Positions 48,247 to 63,147 of a DNA stretch of 64,000 nt are shown here, piece by piece (position 1 is the stretch's first letter; each line of letters opens with the position of its first letter). The notes beneath the pieces were generated by a model that saw nothing but the letters and a program-made list of their open reading frames with translations, ran no database searches and was not told the DNA's origin. This DNA comes from Alcaligenaceae bacterium. GTDB lineage: Bacteria; Pseudomonadota; Gammaproteobacteria; Burkholderiales; Burkholderiaceae_B. The DNA lies in contig JAUNUJ010000002.1 in assembly GCA_030538235.1 (NCBI GenBank), forward strand, positions 299,802 through 363,801, written 5' to 3'. The translations under genes were made by a program, and so were the position numbers.

Positions 48247-48560
48247 TCCAACTCATGAACCAAAAGAGTAATCTATTTTACTCTTCTAAAAAAAAGTTAT
48301 CCACAATGTGGATAGATTGTGGATAAATCGAACTCGATTGCTGTATTAACGACATATTTGCTGTTTTTTGTGGTAAATACCGCGCTAGTCTATTGACTTT
48401 ATTGATGTTTTTTGCCATAATTTATGGTTTTCACTAATTCAGCTTTTAGGTATTAGTTTATTGCCTTAAAAATACATAAATAAATCAATAAATTATTTAC
48501 CCAATAAATTATTTACCGCATATTGCCCTAGCAAATTAATTATTACAAAGGAATCTTGAC
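48247..48560. promoter_or_regulatory. dnaA-rpmH divergent regulatory region with DnaA boxes
   Basis: AT-rich 314 bp between divergent dnaA and rpmH. It includes three DnaA boxes in 30 bp: TTATCCACA at 48297-48305, its inverted variant TGTGGATAG at 48307-48315, and TGTGGATAA at 48318-48326, about 65-90 bp upstream of dnaA. This fits DnaA autoregulation; it may also be a secondary origin element. Confidence 0.75.
48393..48421 (+). promoter_or_regulatory. Probable sigma-70 promoter of rpmH
   Basis: -35 TTGACT and -10 CATAAT separated by exactly 17 bp, about 140 bp upstream of rpmH and reading toward it. Confidence 0.6.
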
Positions 48561-53905: not shown

Positions 53906-55294
53906 CTACTTTCCTATACAGAAAGAGGAGAAGATCTCACCTAATAAATCATCGCTAGTAAACTCACCTGTGATCGAATTTAAAGCTTCATGTGATAAAC
54001 GTAATTCTTCGGCAAATAAATCCAACACACGGTCATCTTGTTGAGCAAAATCATGCGCCTGATTCAAATGTTCCATGGATTGTTTTAGTGCAACTAAATG
54101 CCTTTCTCGAGCTAACCAAGGTGTTTCCTGCTGTACCTGTAAACCGGCAATAGACAGCAATAATTCAGTCAGCTGATTTAAACCCTGTTGTGCTTTGGCA
54201 GATAAGAAAATCGTATTAGAGTAGGCATTACTTTCTTTTAATTGAAGTAGCGATTCCTCAGCCAACAGATCAATCTTATTAAAGACAGTAATTACAGGTG
54301 TATTAGTCGGCATTTTTGCGAGAATATCCTCGTTTGCATCTAAATCGGGTTCTGAGGCATCTTGTAAATGCAAGATCACGTCGGCCTTAGCGATTTCTGC
54401 CCAGCTACGCTCAATACCGATGCTCTCAACCGTATCCTCAGTTTCACGAAGACCCGCAGTATCTACAATATGTAAAGGCACACCATTTAAGTGGATCTGT
54501 TGCACCACCCTATCACGCGTAGTACCGGCAATCGGAGTCACAATCGCTACCTCATCTCCGGCAAGTGCATTTAAAAGACTCGACTTGCCTACATTAGGCT
54601 GACCTGCCAGCACCACATGTAGACCCTCTCGAAGAATCATACCCTGCTCTGATACATGTAAAATATGCTGTAACTGCTGCTGTAAAGCAGTTAATTTAGG
54701 TACAGCATCATATTTTTCTAAAAACTCAATTTCTTCTTCAGGAAAATCTAAGGTTGCCTCTACTAACATCCGCAGATAAATAATACTATCGGCCAAGTCA
54801 TTGACTAAGCGAGAAAACTCCCCACTTAACGAAGCCATAGCGCTACGCGCTGCAGATTCTGAGCTGGCATCGATCAAATCCGCTACCGCTTCAGCTTGGG
54901 CTAAATCAAGTCGACCATTAAGAAATGCACGCTGAGTAAATTCACCAGGCTCGGCAGGTCTTAAACGCTGTTGATTAGCGGGTATTTCCATACAACGTTT
55001 AATTAACCGCTTTAAGACCGCCGGACCACCATGCCCTTGCAATTCAAGAACATCTTCACCAGTATAAGAATTAGGACCTTTGAAGTATAAAGCAATTCCC
55101 TCATCAATGGCATCACCATCTGCATCATTGAATGGCAAATAATAAGCATGGCGAGGTGTTAAATCACGGCCAAAAAATGCATTGATATAAGTCGATAAAT
55201 CTTTGGAGGAAACACGAACCACGCCAATGCCACCACGACCCGGCGCAGTAGCAATAGCAACAATAGGATCTTCTTGAATTTTTAAGACAGACAT
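53906..55294 (-). CDS. mnmE: tRNA uridine-5-carboxymethylaminomethyl modification GTPase
   Basis: 462-residue MnmE (TrmE), which with MnmG modifies U34 of some tRNAs. N-terminal tetrahydrofolate-binding domain ([19 protein letters not shown]), helical domain, inserted G domain (G1 [13 protein letters not shown]2 TTRD, G3 DTAGLRE, G4 NKID) and the invariant C-terminal CIGK. Its partner mnmG lies 3.3 kb away, divergently. It reads leftward, whereas in many relatives yidC and mnmE are co-directional; three genes now separate them. Confidence 0.97.
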
Positions 55295-55308
55295 TTTTAA
55301 GCTAGTAG

Positions 55309-55728
55309 TTATTCAATATATGAGGCGATTTCTTTAGCTAAGGCAATCAATTCTTCCGGATTGCCTGCAACTCTGGCATGTGCTTTATTTGTCTGACCTT
55401 TGTAGACAGGCAACATATGACAATGTAAGTGATAAACCGTCTGACCAGCAGCTGCGTGATTATACTGACTGACGATCAAGCCATCAGCATTGGTCGCTTT
55501 CATCAAGGCCGGTGCAATTTTTTTGCATGTTTTGGCACAAGCAGCGATTGCATCATCACTAATATCAAAAATATTAACAGCGCCCTCTTTTGGCAAGACT
55601 AATAAATGCCCTCTTGACTCTGGCATGATATCCATCATCACATAGGTTTGTTCATCCTCGTAAACCTTATAAGAAGGTGCTTCATTGTTTAAGATTTTCG
55701 CGAAAATATTATCGTTTTGGTATTCCAT
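55309..55728 (-). CDS. HIT-family (histidine triad) hydrolase
   Basis: 139-residue HIT protein with the triad motif YHLHCHMLP (H-x-H-x-H) and the usual start [34 protein letters not shown]. Family members are nucleotide hydrolases/transferases, HinT-type purine nucleoside phosphoramidases among them. GGGAG lies 5 nt before the ATG. Gap to mnmE downstream is 14 bp, so they are co-transcribed. The upstream flank is the origin-like region. Confidence 0.9.
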
Positions 55729-55790
55729 TTTATCTCCCTCGATTGAAAATTAAGAAAAACAGCTTGTGGATATGCTCTATGATAGCGCAA

Positions 55791-56000
55791 TGTGGATAAG
55801 TCGTGACTCAAGTCAGACTAAACAATGCTTTAGTCAAAGTATGCAAATCTATCCACTATCAGAGCATGATTCAACGATACGTTTATCCACATAAATAAAA
55901 ATTTTAAGGTATTGATTTTAAACTTAATTAATGACTTATCCTAGTTATCCACTGAGCATAACAATAACAAAAGGTATTTATAATTAATAATGTATTAACA
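55791..56000. repeat. DnaA-box module, copy A
   Basis: 210-bp unit, starts TGTGGATAA, ends TGTATTAACA. DnaA-box-like 9-mers at offsets 0 (TGTGGATAA), 58 (CTATCCACT), 92 (TTATCCACA), 145 (TTATCCTAG) and 154 (TTATCCACT). The last 65 bp (GAGCATAACAATAACA and TTAATAATGTATTAACA) are AT-rich, a possible unwinding element. Colinear with copy B. Confidence 0.75.
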
Positions 56001-56462
56001 ACGATGATCAATGGCTTAATAATCAAATCCAAATATTGGAAGCTTTTGTGCTTTAAATATAACTACCAAGAAAATTAAATATTCAAAGCTAGTTTAAAAA
56101 ATGCTTAGGTTGATAATTCTAATTTTGTACGAATGAGATAAATGCTAATTAAACTTATGTGAATTAGTAAGGCTTGATACATGGCGACCACACAATAATG
56201 CTCAAAGTAAAAACAGCATGACATAAAAATTATCGCTATAGTGTTTTGGCCACTTATAGATAAACGACATGTCACTTAGTGTTGAGATTTCACTTTTAAA
56301 GACTCACAGAGCGTTTTACACGTCTTAATGCTTTTTCTTGTCATTCCCATATTATGAGTCCAGGGCTGATTGAAGCAGTCCAATTAAGGCCTATTACAAA
56401 GCCAGCTTTTTAGTAAAAGAAATTATTCATTTATTTCATGATAGTTAATACCGAAAATTAAT

Positions 56463-56501
56463 AAACCCTTATGCCTATCTAGAAAATAGTCATAAGGGTT
56501 T
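56463..56501. terminator. Hairpin between the two origin modules
   Basis: Stem AAACCCTTATG with CATAAGGGTTT (11 bp), with an inner CTAT/ATAG pairing, ending in T-rich sequence on both strands. It may end leftward transcripts from the aminotransferase gene before copy A. Confidence 0.6.
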
Positions 56502-56551
56502 TGATTAATTATGATAAAAATCACACAACGGTTAAGTTGATAAGGTAATTC

Positions 56552-56761
56552 TGTGGATAACAGGTGCTTGTTATTAGACTAAGTCTAACTTCCTAAGGTC
56601 TGGTGATATTTATCCACCATCGAGTCTACTTACAACACTAAGCTTATTCAAATAATTTTAACGTTTAAGTCATTGATCTTAAATTTATTTATCGACTTAT
56701 CCCAGTTTTCCACAGAGCATAACAATAACAACAGCTTTATATAATTAATAATGTATTAACA
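56552..56761. repeat. DnaA-box module, copy B
   Basis: 210-bp unit starting 761 bp after copy A. Same offsets: 0 (TGTGGATAA), 58 (TTATCCACC), 92 (degenerate TTATTCAAA), 145 (TTATCCCAG) and 154 (TTTTCCACA). The right third is near-identical to copy A (GAGCATAACAATAACA, AATTAATAATGTATTAACA), the middle has diverged but without net length change. Confidence 0.75.
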
Positions 56762-56767
56762 TCCAAC

Positions 56768-57955
56768 TTAAAACACACTTAAAAGTTCAATAGCTTTTTC
56801 TAAGGTTTCATCACTCTTCGCAAAACAAAAACGCAACATCTGATTATTAGCATCTGAAGATTTTGTATCTTGATAAAAAGCGGATACTGGGATCAAGGTA
56901 ACCCCTACTTCTTTAGTTAAATAAATTGCAAAATCAGCTTCTAATTGATCGGAAATTTCACTGTAATCGGCTAATAAGAAAAAGGTACCGTCACTAGCAA
57001 TCGGTTTAAACTTAGTTTTTTGTAATCCCTCAAATAAAAGATCGTGTTTTTTTTCATAAAACTTGGATAAATTAAGATAATGTGAAGGATCTTGCATGAA
57101 CTTAGCCAACGCTATTTGCATTGGGGTATTAACTGAAAACACTGTAAATTGATGTATTTTTCTAAATTCGACTGTTAAGCTTTGAGGCGCGATGCAGTAG
57201 CCAATCTTCCATCCCGTGTTATGGTAAGTTTTACCAAAAGATGAAATCGCAAATGTCTTTTCTCTCAATTCCGGATGCGTTAAGAAACTCAAAAATCGTT
57301 TTGATTTAAAAATAATATGTTCATAGACTTCATCAGCAATCAAAAAGATATTTTTATCTCTAACTATCTCAGCCAGAGTATCCAAATCTTCCTGTTCAAG
57401 GGTAATACCGGTTGGATTATGTGGGAAGTTCAAAATAATTAGTTTAGTTTTTGATGTAATTGCCTCTTTTAATTGTTGCCAGTTCATGCTGTAACTTGTT
57501 TTATTTTTTGTAGGCTTATTTAGTTGTACATAAACTGGTATACCCCCCGCTAGACGAATACAAGGAACATAAGAGTCATAATTAGGTTCGATGATAATAA
57601 CTTCATCACCCGGGTGTACAACTGCTTGTATTGCAACCATCAAAGCTTCCGTGGCCCCACTAGTTACCGTAACCTCGGTATCAGGATTTATGTCGTGTCC
57701 GTAAAGTATCTTTATTTTTTTTGCAATCTCATGTCTTAATGCTGGGATACCCGGCATTGGTGCATATTGATTATGCGCCTTCATCGCCTCATTGACTAAT
57801 TCGAGTAATTGTTCATCCGGATTAAATTCAGGAAATCCTTGACCTAGGTTAATCGCTTTGTGGTCAACAGCGAGTTGACTCATAACAGTAAAAATAGTTG
57901 TTCCAATATCAGGAAGCTTAGATTTAATCTTTAAAGACTGATTTTCTGTCGTCAT
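56768..57955 (-). CDS. PLP-dependent aminotransferase (class I/II, YbdL-like)
   Basis: 395-residue fold-type I aminotransferase. Landmarks: INLGQGFPEFNPDEQLLEL, YAPMPGIPALRHEIA, VTSGATEALM, the Asn/Pro motif NFPHNPTGITL, ADEVYEHIIF and the PLP lysine in SSFGKTYHNTGWKIGY. The N-terminal start IKSKLPDIGTTIFTVMSQLA matches the methionine/kynurenine aminotransferase group (E. coli YbdL). It sits alone between two origin-like AT-rich gaps, and its stop lies only 6 bp from copy B of the DnaA-box module. Confidence 0.9.
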   Translation of the reverse strand: MTTENQSLKIKSKLPDIGTTIFTVMSQLAVDHKAINLGQGFPEFNPDEQLLELVNEAMKAHNQYAPMPGIPALRHEIAKKIKILYGHDINPDTEVTVTSGATEALMVAIQAVVHPGDEVIIIEPNYDSYVPCIRLAGGIPVYVQLNKPTKNKTSYSMNWQQLKEAITSKTKLIILNFPHNPTGITLEQEDLDTLAEIVRDKNIFLIADEVYEHIIFKSKRFLSFLTHPELREKTFAISSFGKTYHNTGWKIGYCIAPQSLTVEFRKIHQFTVFSVNTPMQIALAKFMQDPSHYLNLSKFYEKKHDLLFEGLQKTKFKPIASDGTFFLLADYSEISDQLEADFAIYLTKEVGVTLIPVSAFYQDTKSSDANNQMLRFCFAKSDETLEKAIELLSVF

Positions 57956-58123
57956 AATACCCTCTTAATTTAATTTATCCACAAATAAGGATTTAATCAA
58001 TAAATTTTATCAACTATTTAAATACCTTAATTACAAGTACTTATATAGCTTAAGCACAGTTTATACAGTCTAATCCCAACTTAATAACAGAGTTATCCAG
58101 AAAGTTATCCACAATTAACTGTT

Positions 58124-58139
58124 TGTTCCACATGGAACA
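58124..58139. promoter_or_regulatory. parS-like site (degenerate)
   Basis: TGTTCCACATGGAACA, three differences from the canonical parS, nearly self-complementary. It is the exact reverse complement of the site at 58451-58466. Confidence 0.45.
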
Positions 58140-58227
58140 TATTATTATCTTATTTGATTTAAGCTTTGCATTTAAATAGTACGTTTATTGATTCTATACT
58201 TTATTGGCAAGTGTAGATAGCTACGAT

Positions 58228-58243
58228 TGTTTCACGTGGAACC
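58228..58243. promoter_or_regulatory. parS-like site
   Basis: TGTTTCACGTGGAACC, two differences from canonical parS, with the central CACGTG intact. Confidence 0.55.
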
Positions 58244-58450
58244 TTTGCTTCTATTGCATATAGATTGTTATGTGCAAAAGACGACTAAGCTAATTATGTT
58301 AAAATATTTTTTTATAAGCTTGTTAAATATAATAAGTGGCTGTTCAAGAACTATATAGATAAAAATTAGTCAAACAAATGCATCTAAAAAAACTGCTCAA
58401 CTGAGACCATTTAACAAAATCAAATAATAAAGTTTATTGCTCATTGTGGA

Positions 58451-58466
58451 TGTTCCATGTGGAACA
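58451..58466. promoter_or_regulatory. parS-like site (degenerate)
   Basis: TGTTCCATGTGGAACA, three differences from canonical parS; reverse complement of the site at 58124-58139. Confidence 0.45.
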
Positions 58467-58592
58467 ATTTAAAAGTTATAGTTTTGCTGCAATCATTATT
58501 TAAGTTACAAAAAACGCTGGACGAGTAGAAAATTATCTTTGTCTTATTAAAAGCGCTTCATATTATTAATTGTTTAATTTATATTAAATATC

Positions 58593-60500
58593 ATGGAATT
58601 TCCAAATACATTTGATGTTATTGTTGTTGGTGGAGGTCATGCGGGAACTGAGGCTGCATTGGCTTCCGCACGCATGGGGTCTAAAACCTTATTAATAACG
58701 CACAATATTGAAACTTTAGGTCAGTTGTCTTGTAATCCTTCAATTGGTGGGATTGGCAAAGGTCATTTGATCAAAGAAATTGATGCGCTTGGTGGTGCAA
58801 TGGCTAAGGCTATTGATAAAGCCGGTATTCAATTCAGAATTCTAAATAGTTCAAAAGGCCCGGCTGTTAGGGCTACTCGAGCTCAAGCTGATAGAGTGCT
58901 TTATAGAAACGCCATTCGATATATTTTGGAAAATCAGGAAAATTTATTTCTGTTTCAGCAAGGTGTCGATGATCTTTTAGTAGAAGGTGATCGTGTTGTC
59001 GGTGCAGTTACTCAAATTGGCCTCAAATTTTATGCCCCTGTGGTGATATTGACTGCAGGTACCTTCTTAAATGGCAAGATTCACGTGGGGTTGGATAATT
59101 ACTCTGGGGGTAGAGCCGGGGATCCTCCATCGATAAGTTTGGCTCATCGTTTGAAAGAGATGAATTTACCTCAAGGCCGTTTAAAAACCGGTACACCACC
59201 TCGTTTAGATGCTAGAACAATTGATTTCACACATTTAATTGAACAGCCTGGAGACACTGATCCTATTCCGGTTTTTTCTTATTTGGGACGTAGTGAAGAA
59301 CCTCCTCGCCAAATATCCTGCTGGATTACTCATACTAATGAACAAACTCATGACATTATCCGTAGTGGATTTGATCGTTCACCCATGTTTACCGGAAAGA
59401 TTGACGGCGTAGGGCCGCGTTATTGTCCATCAGTAGAGGATAAAATTAATCGATTCGCTGATAAAGACTCTCATCAGATATTCTTAGAGCCTGAAGGTTT
59501 ATATACGCACGAAATTTATCCTAACGGTATTTCGACTAGTCTGCCTTTTGATATTCAATTTAAATTAGTACGTAGTATTCGTGGTCTAGAAAATGCTCAT
59601 ATTTTACGTCCGGGTTATGCTATTGAATATGATTATTACGATCCTCGTGAATTGAAGTCTAGTCTCGAAAGTAAACATATAAAAGGTTTGTTTTTAGCCG
59701 GACAGATTAATGGCACCACAGGTTATGAAGAGGCTGCTGCTCAAGGATTATTGGCTGGCATTAATGCGTGTTTACTGCTACAAGGCAAAGATAGCTGGAC
59801 ACCACGCCGAGATGAGGCTTATTTAGGGGTTTTAGTTGATGACTTGATTACTCGTGGTGTTAGTGAACCATATCGTATGTTCACTTCACGAGCAGAATAT
59901 CGTCTGAGTTTACGCGAAGATAATGCTGATTTCAGATTAACGGAAATTGGTTATCGTTTAGGTGTTGTTCCACAGGAACGTTGGGATGCTTTTGACGCCA
60001 AACGCAATAATGTAAAAAAAGAAATAGATCGTTTGAGTTCAATCAGAATTCATGGTGAAACCTATGACCGTGAAGCAGCGACTGAGGTTCTAGGTAGGGC
60101 ACCAGAAAAATCTTATGTTTTATCTGAATTATTAAAACGTCCTAATGTTGATTATCAGTCTTTAATGAATTTAGCGACTAAAGAGGGCGAGTTATTTTCT
60201 TCAGAAGAAGCATTAACAGTTGATGAGATTGAGCAGGTCGAAATTCAAATTAAGTATGCTGGTTATATAGACAGGCAACAAGAAGAGGTTAAGCGCCAAC
60301 AGCAATTTGAAAATATGAAAATACCTGCTGATTTTGATTATGATTCTATAGCGAACTTATCAATTGAGGCGCGTTCTTTTCTTAATAAACATCGACCGGA
60401 GACCATTGGTCAAGCGACTCGTATCTCTGGGATGACACCGGCCGCTATATCTTTACTATTAATTCATGTTAAGCGTGCACAACAGAGCATAAAAGCTTAA
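58593..60500 (+). CDS. mnmG: tRNA uridine-5-carboxymethylaminomethyl modification enzyme, FAD subunit
   Basis: 635-residue MnmG (GidA), FAD- and NADH-dependent partner of MnmE. FAD motif [40 protein letters not shown]-like [21 protein letters not shown] region, the second signature [22 protein letters not shown], and the helical C-terminus ending with the [12 protein letters not shown] segment. First gene of a rightward run mnmG-rsmG-parA-parB. The ATG has no strong SD. Third-position base use is visibly more AT-rich than in genes at the left of the window. Confidence 0.98.
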
Positions 60501-60587
60501 TACTTTATTCACTTTTTGATTAACACAAAAGCTTCTAAAACCATAAATTGACATTTTGTTTTAGAAGCTTTTGTCATCAAAAATAAA

Positions 60588-60603
60588 TGTTTCACGTGAA
60601 ACA
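60588..60603. promoter_or_regulatory. Canonical parS centromere site
   Basis: Perfect 16-bp palindrome TGTTTCACGTGAAACA, identical to the widely conserved chromosomal parS. It lies 31 bp before rsmG and within 1.6 kb of parB, whose product binds it for origin segregation. Confidence 0.93.
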
Positions 60604-60634
60604 ATAACAAATTAATCAATGTAGGCAGGTTTAT

Positions 60635-61288
60635 ATGGCTGACTTTAATGTTCGTTTATCACAAGCAGCGGAGAAAATGCATTTAACGCTTGATGATAAA
60701 CAAAAGCAGGATATTTTGCTCTATCTTGAGCTTATCCAAAAGTGGAATAAAACGTATAATATTACTGCGATTAAAAATGCTGAACAGATATTAATTCAGC
60801 ATATATTTGATAGCCTTTCAGTGATACCCGCTTTACAAAAAAAAATTGACTCGACAACCGAGAGGACTGTGTTGGATGTAGGGTCAGGTGGTGGCTTACC
60901 AGGCGTTATTATTGCTATTTGCTGCCCACAATGGCATGTCACCTGTATCGATGCTGTTGAAAAAAAGACCAGTTTTATCACAATGGTTGCAGGACGTCTG
61001 GGTCTTGAGAATCTTCGTTCAAAACACGTTAGAATTGAAGATTATGTATCAGCCGAAGCGGATTTAGTGATATCTAGAGCTTTTGCGTCTTTAAGTGACT
61101 TTGCTAATTGGTCGGGTCACACGGTCAATGAACATGGTTTTTTAGCTGCGATGAAAGGTCATTATCTTGAGGATGAAGTCAGCGAGTTGCAACAAAACAG
61201 TGATTGGTGTCTTAGTTCTTGGCAAAAAATCGAAGTGCCTGATATGGATGCCGAGCGTTGTTTAATATGGATGAGTAAAAAGGGTTAG
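60635..61288 (+). CDS. rsmG: 16S rRNA (guanine-527-N7)-methyltransferase
   Basis: 217-residue RsmG (GidB). Rossmann methyltransferase with the SAM loop VLDVGSGGGLPGVIIAI, the N-terminal YLELIQKWNKTYNITAI and LIQHIFDSL blocks, and ADLVISRAFASL. It methylates G527 of 16S rRNA; loss often gives low-level streptomycin resistance. Placed between mnmG and parA in the common order, 9 bp before parA. Confidence 0.95.
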   Translation: MADFNVRLSQAAEKMHLTLDDKQKQDILLYLELIQKWNKTYNITAIKNAEQILIQHIFDSLSVIPALQKKIDSTTERTVLDVGSGGGLPGVIIAICCPQWHVTCIDAVEKKTSFITMVAGRLGLENLRSKHVRIEDYVSAEADLVISRAFASLSDFANWSGHTVNEHGFLAAMKGHYLEDEVSELQQNSDWCLSSWQKIEVPDMDAERCLIWMSKKG

Positions 61289-61297
61289 GGGGTTAAA

Positions 61298-62074
61298 TTG
61301 CCTAAAATATATTGTGTAGCAAATCAAAAAGGTGGTGTGGGTAAGACCACCACAGCGGTAAACTTGGCTGCCGGTTTAGCAGTTAATAAGAAGAAGGTTC
61401 TTTTAATAGACTTAGATCCTCAAGGCAATGCAACCATGGGTTCAGGTGTCGAAAAAAGTGATTTAAATTCAAATGTTTATCATGTATTGATTGGTCAAGC
61501 AGGTATTAATGACACCCTGGTTAACGCTGAAAATAGCGGTTATGACGTATTACCTAGTAATCGTGAATTATCAGGTGCTGATATTGACTTGATGAATCTT
61601 GAAGACAGGGAGTATCGTTTAAATAATGCGATTCAAGAACTAGAAAAAGATTATGACTTTATTTTAATCGATTGCCCTCCAACCTTATCCTTACTTACCA
61701 TTAACGCCTTAGCAGGAGCTGATGGGGTGATTATTCCTATGCAGTGTGAATATTTTGCACTGGAGGGTCTATCTGATTTAGTAAATACAGTAAAGCGTGT
61801 TTACCAACATATTAATCCCAATCTTGAAATCACCGGTTTACTACGTGTCATGTATGACCCGAGAATGACTTTACAACAACAAGTTTCTGATCAATTAGAA
61901 GAATACTTTGGCGACAAGGTATTTAAAACAGTGATCCCTCGCAATGTACGTTTAGCTGAAGCGCCAAGTTATGGGATTCCGGGCATTCAATATGATAAGT
62001 CTTCACGTGGTGCTCAAGCTTATCTGCAATTTGCCAAAGAGCTATTAAAAATTAGCAAAGCAAAAAAACAATAA
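61298..62074 (+). CDS. parA: Chromosome partitioning ATPase ParA (Soj)
   Basis: 258-residue deviant-Walker ATPase: KGGVGKTTTAVNLAAGLA, IDLDPQGNATMGSG, LIDCPPTLSLLTINAL and the DNA-binding basic C-terminal half (RNVRLAEAPSYGIPGIQYD). It binds nucleoid DNA as an ATP dimer and is stimulated by ParB to move origins. Start is TTG, preceded by AGGGGG at 5-nt spacing, unusual but well supported as the second codon begins the conserved fold. Co-transcribed with rsmG and parB. Confidence 0.97.
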   Translation: MPKIYCVANQKGGVGKTTTAVNLAAGLAVNKKKVLLIDLDPQGNATMGSGVEKSDLNSNVYHVLIGQAGINDTLVNAENSGYDVLPSNRELSGADIDLMNLEDREYRLNNAIQELEKDYDFILIDCPPTLSLLTINALAGADGVIIPMQCEYFALEGLSDLVNTVKRVYQHINPNLEITGLLRVMYDPRMTLQQQVSDQLEEYFGDKVFKTVIPRNVRLAEAPSYGIPGIQYDKSSRGAQAYLQFAKELLKISKAKKQ

Positions 62075-62118
62075 AAATAAATGCTTTAAAATTAAACTTT
62101 TAAACAAACAATAGAGAT

Positions 62119-63147
62119 ATGATCAATAAATCAGCGAGTAAAAAAACAGCAGCAAAAAAAATTGTAGCGAAAAAAACAATTGCCAAGAAAGCAGCAGCTC
62201 CTAGAAAACAAGCTAAAGGTCTAGGTCGTGGTTTAGGCGCCTTATTGGGTGATGATATTGGTATTACTCAAGTCATTAGGGGGGATGCAAGCCTTGAGAC
62301 TGTGACAGACAAAGATCAAGCAACTACCGCAAACGATACAAATGCAGGCAATACATTGCAATTAAAGCAATTACGTGCTGGAAAGTATCAACCTCGCACA
62401 AAAATGGAACAGGAAAAGCTCGAAGAATTGGCTGATTCCATTGCGCGCGAAGGCATTATGCAGCCTTTATTAGTGCGACCTTTAGTAGGTCAAGAGGGTG
62501 TATTTGAGATTATTGCCGGTGAAAGACGATTTAGAGCCGCAAAAATCGTAGGCTTAAATGAAGTTCCTGTATTAATTCGTGATGTCAGTGACGAGCAAGC
62601 CGCTATTATGGCTTTGATCGAAAATATGCAACGCGAGGATCTAAATCCCCTAGAAGAGGCTAGAGGGATTCGTCGCTTAATCGATGAGTTTAATTTCACC
62701 CATGAGCAAGCCGCTGAGAGTATTGGTCGTTCGCGTTCCTATACATCTAATTTATTGAGATTAGTTAATTTAGCCGAGCCGGTGCAAGAGATGTTACTTG
62801 ATGGGCAAATTGATATGGGCCATGCGCGAGCCTTATTAGCGGTTAGTTCGGCTGAACAGATTCTACTGGCTCATCAAGTAGTGGCCAAGGGATTATCAGT
62901 AAGAGAAACTGAACGGCTGGTTAAGCAGTTCTTAAATCAGGCTAATCAGATCAGCAAAAGTCCAGCTAAAGAAAGAAGTCGCGATGTGGTACGACTTGAA
63001 GAGGCTTTGTCTGATTATCTAGGCACCAAGGTCTCAATCAAGGTAAATGCTAAACAAAAAGGTCAATTGCTGATTGATTTTCATGATTGGGAGCAGCTAA
63101 ATACCTTGTTAGAAAAGCAAGGCCTAGCGGATGTCATTGAAAATTGA
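62119..63147 (+). CDS. parB: Chromosome partitioning protein ParB with Lys-rich N-terminal extension
   Basis: 342-residue CTPase clamp that loads at parS. A 33-residue tail has KK pairs at 8/9, 13/14, 18/19 and 23/24, an exact five-residue period (SKKTAAKKIVAKKTIAKK), before the usual start GLGRGLGALLGDD. Core motifs follow: LRAGKYQPRTKM, CTP-binding GERRFRAAKI, ENMQREDLNPLEEA, the helix-turn-helix (HEQAAESIGRSRSYTSNLLRL) and the C-terminal dimer domain. The tail resembles histone H1-like/AlgP repeats and may give extra nonspecific DNA binding. Closed by a terminator. Confidence 0.96.
   Translation: MINKSASKKTAAKKIVAKKTIAKKAAAPRKQAKGLGRGLGALLGDDIGITQVIRGDASLETVTDKDQATTANDTNAGNTLQLKQLRAGKYQPRTKMEQEKLEELADSIAREGIMQPLLVRPLVGQEGVFEIIAGERRFRAAKIVGLNEVPVLIRDVSDEQAAIMALIENMQREDLNPLEEARGIRRLIDEFNFTHEQAAESIGRSRSYTSNLLRLVNLAEPVQEMLLDGQIDMGHARALLAVSSAEQILLAHQVVAKGLSVRETERLVKQFLNQANQISKSPAKERSRDVVRLEEALSDYLGTKVSIKVNAKQKGQLLIDFHDWEQLNTLLEKQGLADVIEN

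Follow-up and report, generated by a model that had tools for sequence, protein, structure and literature searches.

Bacterial chromosomes have, almost as a rule, a single origin. The stretch of DNA analysed here (the window, 64,000 nucleotides) holds two segments that each resemble the core of an origin, and the question raised by the locus is whether this chromosome carries its origin twice, as an earlier note on the same DNA had proposed under the name of a duplicated oriC core. The region is probably the chromosomal replication origin of an Oligella species, with two modules of which at least one opens.

Module A (55791-56000) and module B (56552-56761) are each 210 bp long, lie in the same orientation and start 761 bp apart, exactly as the earlier note had placed them. 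In an ungapped alignment they are identical at 144 of 210 positions (68.6%). The control for this comparison, 2000 pairs of first-order shuffles, gave an identity of 29.6% ± 3.1% with a maximum of 41.4%, which rules out chance similarity. Every other offset of at least 211 bp within 55001-58600 gave 43.3% or less, and identity in the 60-bp flanks falls to 30%. A recent duplication or an assembly repeat is likewise ruled out, because the copies are 31% diverged and are common to congeners. The right ends had been called the best conserved parts, and the last three 30-bp blocks do agree at 25, 27 and 26 of 30 positions. The spacer between the modules (56001-56551) contains no open reading frame of at least 60 amino acids and has an inverted repeat at 56463-56501. 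Searches for structured RNA or tRNA at the modules found none. The window as a whole holds 29 DnaA-like 9-mers (one mismatch allowed), where shuffles give 15.7 ± 3.7, and 10 of the 29 fall in 55765-58113.

The alignment also upholds the proposed box offsets of 0, 58, 92, 145 and 154. At offset 0 both modules carry the inverted box TGTGGATAA (minus strand, 55791-55799 in A and 56552-56560 in B). The box at +58 is weak in both, CTATCCACT in A (55849-55857, plus strand) and TTATCCACC in B (56610-56618, plus strand), while that at +92 is TTATCCACA in A (55883-55891, plus strand) and TTATTCAAA, decayed as the note had said, in B (56644-56652, plus strand). On the right, a half box at +145 (TTATCCTAG in A, TTATCCCAG in B) stands in tandem with an R1-like box at +154 (TTATCCACT in A, TTTTCCACA in B), together covering 55936-55953 and 56697-56714 on the plus strand. 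The extent given earlier for the core holds for the 210-bp repeat and fails at its left limit. An outer R4-like box, TGTGGATAT, lies at -26 of module A (55765-55773, minus strand) and is lost in B, so that the complete oriC-like module A runs from the outer box to the end of the AT-rich end (55765-56000, plus strand). An IHF-like site had also been missed. By the IHF consensus, it is TAAGGTATTGATT in A (55905-55917, minus strand), 40 bp before the right box, and its counterpart in B (56666-56678, minus strand) differs at the last consensus base. Read from right to left, a module thus consists of an AT-rich end, a run of DnaA trios, the R1-like box with its tandem half box, the IHF-like site, the weak boxes and the inverted box or boxes.

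Several features of known origins can be looked for in this layout. According to the available part of PMC8287927, a basal unwinding system (BUS) consists of a DnaA box, a spacer of at most 16 bp and at least three NAN trios. Both modules have this arrangement, with a spacer of 5 and five NAN trios after the right box. The trio run and the AT-rich putative unwinding element occupy 55954-56000 in A and 56715-56761 in B (plus strand), and the AT-rich ends adjoining the right boxes, at 19% and 21% GC respectively, have the composition of an AT-rich element; even so, DNA of lower stability occurs in the window, at 46 and 146 overlapping 40-bp positions. The distance from the outer to the right box of A is 180 bp, equal to that between R4 and R1 in the E. 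coli record NC_000913, and module A therefore shows the E. coli-type layout of opposed boxes about 180 bp apart with an IHF-like site near R1. Module B keeps the IHF-like site; of the inverted boxes the outer one is missing, and the inner one, 154 bp from the right box, is all that remains. The many GATC sites of an E. coli-type origin (Dam/SeqA control) are absent: module A has none, although the stretch counted for it has one just beyond the module end, and module B has one. Such near-absence gives no sign of SeqA-type sequestration.

The surroundings are those of a chromosomal origin. The gene order is dnaA (-), yidC (+), mnmE (53906-55294, -), a gene for a HIT-domain protein (55309-55728, -; Pfam HIT, 3.1e-22), modules A and B, a methionine-aminotransferase-like gene (56768-57955, -), parS-like sites, and then mnmG, rsmG, parA-like and parB-like genes (58593-63147, +; the parA match is under the curated cut-off of its best model). 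Further DnaA boxes at 57975, 58093 and 58105 (57975-58113, plus strand) lie outside any module match. Three palindromes at 58124, 58228 and 58451 (58124-58466) and a fourth at 60588 are parS-like by the parS consensus. The DnaA-box cluster therefore lies in intergenic DNA beside replication and partition genes. It also lies at a switch of GC skew, for which the earlier note had suggested looking: the cumulative minimum of the one contig profiled (363.8 kb, of 14 contigs) is at window position 58131, 1.37 kb to the right of module B, with only 5.9 kb of the contig beyond it. The minimum is good only to a few kb and cannot separate A from B. Three DnaA-like boxes at 48297-48326, just upstream of dnaA, are expected for an autoregulated promoter. 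A plasmid or mobile origin was considered and rejected, since the best match in each of 17 plasmid records (17 of 23 matching places listed) covers part of mnmG, mnmE or the aminotransferase gene and not the modules.

The source organism is an Oligella. In two named relatives, O. ureolytica DSM 18253 (G001) and O. urethralis DSM 7531 (G002), the HIT and aminotransferase genes likewise enclose two modules, and the inner-to-right spacing is 154. The distance from start to start is 761 bp in the window, 497 in O. ureolytica and 350 in O. urethralis. Among nine Oligella copies the inner and right boxes are exactly 154 bp apart in eight; the ninth (copy A of G004) is without the inner box. Mean column conservation over the nine is 0.92 in the boxes, 0.81 in the IHF-like site and 0.81 in the trios and AT-rich end, against 0.60 in the rest of the module and 0.64 in the left flank. 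G004 has three copies across two contigs, and two of its right ends (L045:150-224 and L046:449-520) are near-identical over about 70 bp with left parts less alike, which looks like gene conversion. G005 also has three modules (L047:8307-10550), one inverted relative to the other two, with spacings of 153-155, boxes of the TTATGCACA/TTATACACA type in all three and an alpha/beta-hydrolase-like gene (named by eye) between modules. No module was found in three of the eight genomes labelled Oligella (G003, G006 and G007, which are 93, 84 and 87% complete; best E 0.007-0.13); these three also gave no match to the HIT neighbour and only distant matches (24-28%) to the aminotransferase. In the tree of Oligella copies, the first copies group at 53/85 support and none of four constraints is rejected, a result compatible both with orthology of A and B by position in each species and with their homogenisation. 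The tandem state is thus kept in congeners with constant spacing within modules and a changing gap between them, which agrees with the suggestion of selection on architecture. By this pattern of conservation, the duplicated modules have apparently been kept by selection.

The module is also found beyond the genus. The pattern TGTGSATAA-N143..147-TTATSCACA matches 21 of 200 genomes of the family and its reversed control none; in its exact form it misses the window's own modules. A sequence-only profile, R1, was built from 27 modules of 20 genomes, which match it by construction, and matches 179 of the 200 at E <= 0.01; of the matches to the exact pattern, those of G079 and G016 (L067 and L068, no trios), G001:C37 and the second of G221 (C304) were left out of its alignment. 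Modules A (132 bits, 1.4e-39) and B (108 bits, 2.6e-32) were both in the training set, so that their own scores follow by construction. Forty near-complete genomes were chosen from the 200 for having few contigs (at most 10), not all such genomes being taken, and modules were counted at a cut-off of our own choosing (180 or more model positions, E <= 1e-9). A tandem same-strand pair is present in 18 of the 40, in 10 of 22 genera, with the modules 358-4253 bp apart; only G025 and G164 among these 18 contributed a module, one each, to the training of R1. The other 22 comprise one genome with two modules far apart (G190), 15 with a single module and six with none by the cut-off, and all 40 match R1 at E <= 0.01, some weakly. 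G134 has two opposite-strand matches at E 1-3e-9, narrowly below the cut-off. The earlier note had held that a tandem duplicated core would be unusual; among the family genomes examined it is not, and a single origin module per chromosome is the rule neither here nor in those 18 relatives. Of 120 genomes from the order, which include four or more from the family, 50 match at E <= 0.001, mostly weakly, and a few have close repeats (G042, G253, G225 and G271).

In most of 40 family loci compared, no more than about 6 kb separates the module or modules from the aminotransferase gene, and where mnmG is also seen, the modules lie on its strand, except in G134 and G005, which have both orientations. 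A calcineurin-like phosphoesterase gene (Pfam on one fragment) lies between the tandem modules of G008, G154, G034 and G177 (L180, L214, L215 and L216). Over 65 modules, with box positions fitted within a few bases and one row (G004c) misplaced at its right box, the IHF-like pattern occurs at -39 to -41 in 31 and elsewhere within modules just four times. The misplaced row was replaced before trees were built. In the tree of the 65, paralogues of the same genome are often nearest each other (G005, G091, G164, G161, G016 and G117), and copies group by position in g2, g66 and Advenella, which implies that both copies were kept there through speciation. DnaA boxes of another kind were seen in G000, where four GTTATCCACAGNNNNNNTGGATAA dyads with spacings of 303, 295 and 295 bp (G000:C9:210488-211404; L048:5489-6405) lie between UspA-like and malate-synthase-like genes (named by eye). 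One such dyad each occurs in four others of 61 family genomes and none in the rest, the 61 including two other members of the genus. The array is possibly a datA-like DnaA reservoir.

Evidence on whether a module can act by itself comes from Advenella (genus g64; in G175, 20 kb of a 23,610-bp contig match the A. mimigardefordensis DPN7 plasmid NZ_CP003916.1 at 100% identity). A second complete module is present at another locus in four of ten Advenella genomes (G142, G189, G070 and G221). In three it is inverted and lies 67 kb (G142:C14:214880-215130, L202), 73 kb (G189:C23:165220-165470, L204) and 89 kb (G070:C4:90086-90335, L200) from the canonical one, and in G221 the two modules are on different contigs. 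In G070 and G142 the far module has a TctC-type receptor gene on one side and a sulfide:quinone-reductase-like gene on the other (families tested in G142). The far modules of all four genomes were in the R1 training set and the canonical ones were not, so the higher scores of the former in G070, G142 and G189 prove nothing. With 20-kb flanks, the top two skew-switch peaks are at 213.9k and 284.1k in G142 (modules 215.0k and 282.3k), at 164.0k and 239.3k in G189 (modules 165.3k and 238.6k) and at 180.5k and 89.5k in G070 (modules 178.7k and 90.2k), that is, 0.7-1.8 kb from a module throughout; right flanks were shorter near contig ends, down to 5 kb, which affects the window and, in G070, the canonical module. 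The second peak of G189 shifts to 233.2k when the flanks are 15 kb. G175, a control with a single module, has one strong peak 1.7 kb from it. In G142, G189 and G070 the skew reaches its global minimum at the canonical module.

An old inversion or translocation, rather than initiation, could have produced the switch at the far module, and we give this reading a chance somewhat short of even. The far module has the inverted orientation, the skew climbs for 15-30 kb between the two modules before it falls, and strong switches also occur without a module, as in the third peaks of G189 and G142 and at about 162-164 kb of G000:C10, the second-strongest switch of that contig, where there is no module match. 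The second match of G190 is partial and on the opposite strand, about 109 kb away when counted across the record start, and no strong skew switch coincides with it. Against a rearrangement, a gene of the metallo-beta-lactamase fold lies 2.4-3.3 kb from the far module in all four genomes, G221 included; the distances between modules differ; the skew of third codon positions (crude ORF calls) also changes direction at the far module in the contigs of G142, G189 and G070; and the two strongest peaks are at modules in all three contigs. The skew supports two active origins in these Advenella genomes, short of proof, and the position of the two top switches at the two modules suggests that one module by itself can serve as an origin.

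In the proposed working of the window's origin, DnaA would bind the inverted R4-like box or boxes on the left and the R1-like box on the right, IHF would bend the DNA between them, and DnaA would spread from the right-hand tandem boxes onto the trios, so that the AT-rich right end might open and admit the helicase. Module A is likely able to start replication. For module B, the same capacity is about an even question. If either can start, the starts would be redundant or paired within 1 kb, and firing at one module would passively replicate the other. A single profile, by which the origin locus is recognised in most of the family genomes searched, fits both copies, and the skew turns here, so the sequence supports the earlier proposal of a duplicated oriC core. 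What speaks against a two-module origin is that B has neither the outer box nor an intact +92 box and that its right box is TTTTCCACA against TTATCCACT in A; for these reasons B may be weaker or only regulatory.

The main rival to a two-start origin builds on that asymmetry: one module, probably A, would be the origin and the other a retained helper that recruits or titrates DnaA, as part of a bipartite origin in the wide sense or in the manner of datA. Pairs elsewhere in the family are unequal as well (93 against 63 bits in G008, 107 against 48 in G091 and 104 against 62 in G015), and bipartite origins have precedent in B. subtilis and H. pylori (PMC4403523, available part). A helper that only titrated DnaA would need no unwinding element, yet in both copies the AT-rich end ranks with the best conserved stretches, and each copy keeps its own IHF-like site, R1-like box and trios. 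A helper of this kind is a real possibility, at roughly one chance in three.

A relic, in which the origin was once duplicated and the second copy is decaying without function, is improbable: the 31% divergence, the boxes lost in B and the inner box lost in copy A of G004 are what decay would leave, but nearly all Oligella copies have the exact spacing, conservation is much higher in the boxes than in the remaining sequence, and the copies of g2, g66 and Advenella have kept their positions across speciation. Slightly less probable still is an origin in the box and parS region between the aminotransferase gene and mnmG (57956-58592) with the modules as accessories, for that region contains the skew minimum and two perfect and one near-perfect DnaA boxes, but it has no module match while the module is the part conserved in the family, the minimum is imprecise, and an Advenella skew switch also lies at a module whose surrounding 20 kb contain neither mnmG nor par genes.

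The wider reading is that two complete DnaA-type origins naturally run on one chromosome in this family, with both tandem modules firing in Oligella and many relatives, and with two separate active origins 67-89 kb apart in three species of an Advenella clade, whose forks would meet between them; we advance it tentatively, below an even chance. A recurrent and apparently selected doubling of a whole origin module in one family bears on the one-origin rule. Relatives with a single copy, and a clade with a second copy at a second skew switch, offer natural experiments on why there is usually one origin, how two are coordinated, and whether the members of a tandem pair are redundant or work as one machine. 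In practical terms, profile R1 singles out about 250 bp of sequence in most of the family genomes searched. The parts are known already. Among the matches listed in the open-access literature, no paper was recognised as describing tandem oriC modules in the family, or a doubling of whole modules maintained across a family.

Several known systems share parts of this arrangement. The oriC of E. coli has the same succession of unwinding element, R1, IHF-like site, weak boxes and inverted R4, with mnmG on the side of the unwinding element. It differs in that here the module stands twice in tandem, a further inverted box lies 26 bp inward of the outer one, a tandem half-box adjoins R1, the IHF-like site is 9 bp farther from R1, and an aminotransferase gene separates the modules from mnmG. 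The BUS of the B. subtilis type has tandem DnaA boxes, a short spacer and NAN trios (PMC8287927, available part), as each module has. Here it occurs twice in one origin. Bipartite origins have box groups split around dnaA and the unwinding element in one part; in the strict sense, as we understand the term, two box groups share a single unwinding element, whereas each module here has its own trios and AT-rich end. Such origins are known in B. subtilis and H. pylori (the part of PMC4403523 available), and two neighbouring DnaA-box groups are the likeness. In the present locus each part is complete and dnaA does not lie between them. The two origins of two-oriC strains of Vibrio cholerae are of different types, joined by chromosome fusion. 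These are natural single-chromosome strains with two functional oriCs (PMC10225481, in part). Two origins on one natural chromosome are the likeness, and the difference is that the copies here are of one type. Burkholderia cenocepacia belongs to the same family. For its chromosome 1, the available part of PMC4948915 leaves the origin position uncertain, describes no duplicated module and remarks on a second DnaA-box cluster, the closest hint in the literature. The putative double origins of DoriC (Gao 2015, PMC4403523, as far as available) raise the same question of two origins per chromosome, in other organisms and other arrangements, such as two dnaA loci or distant box clusters.
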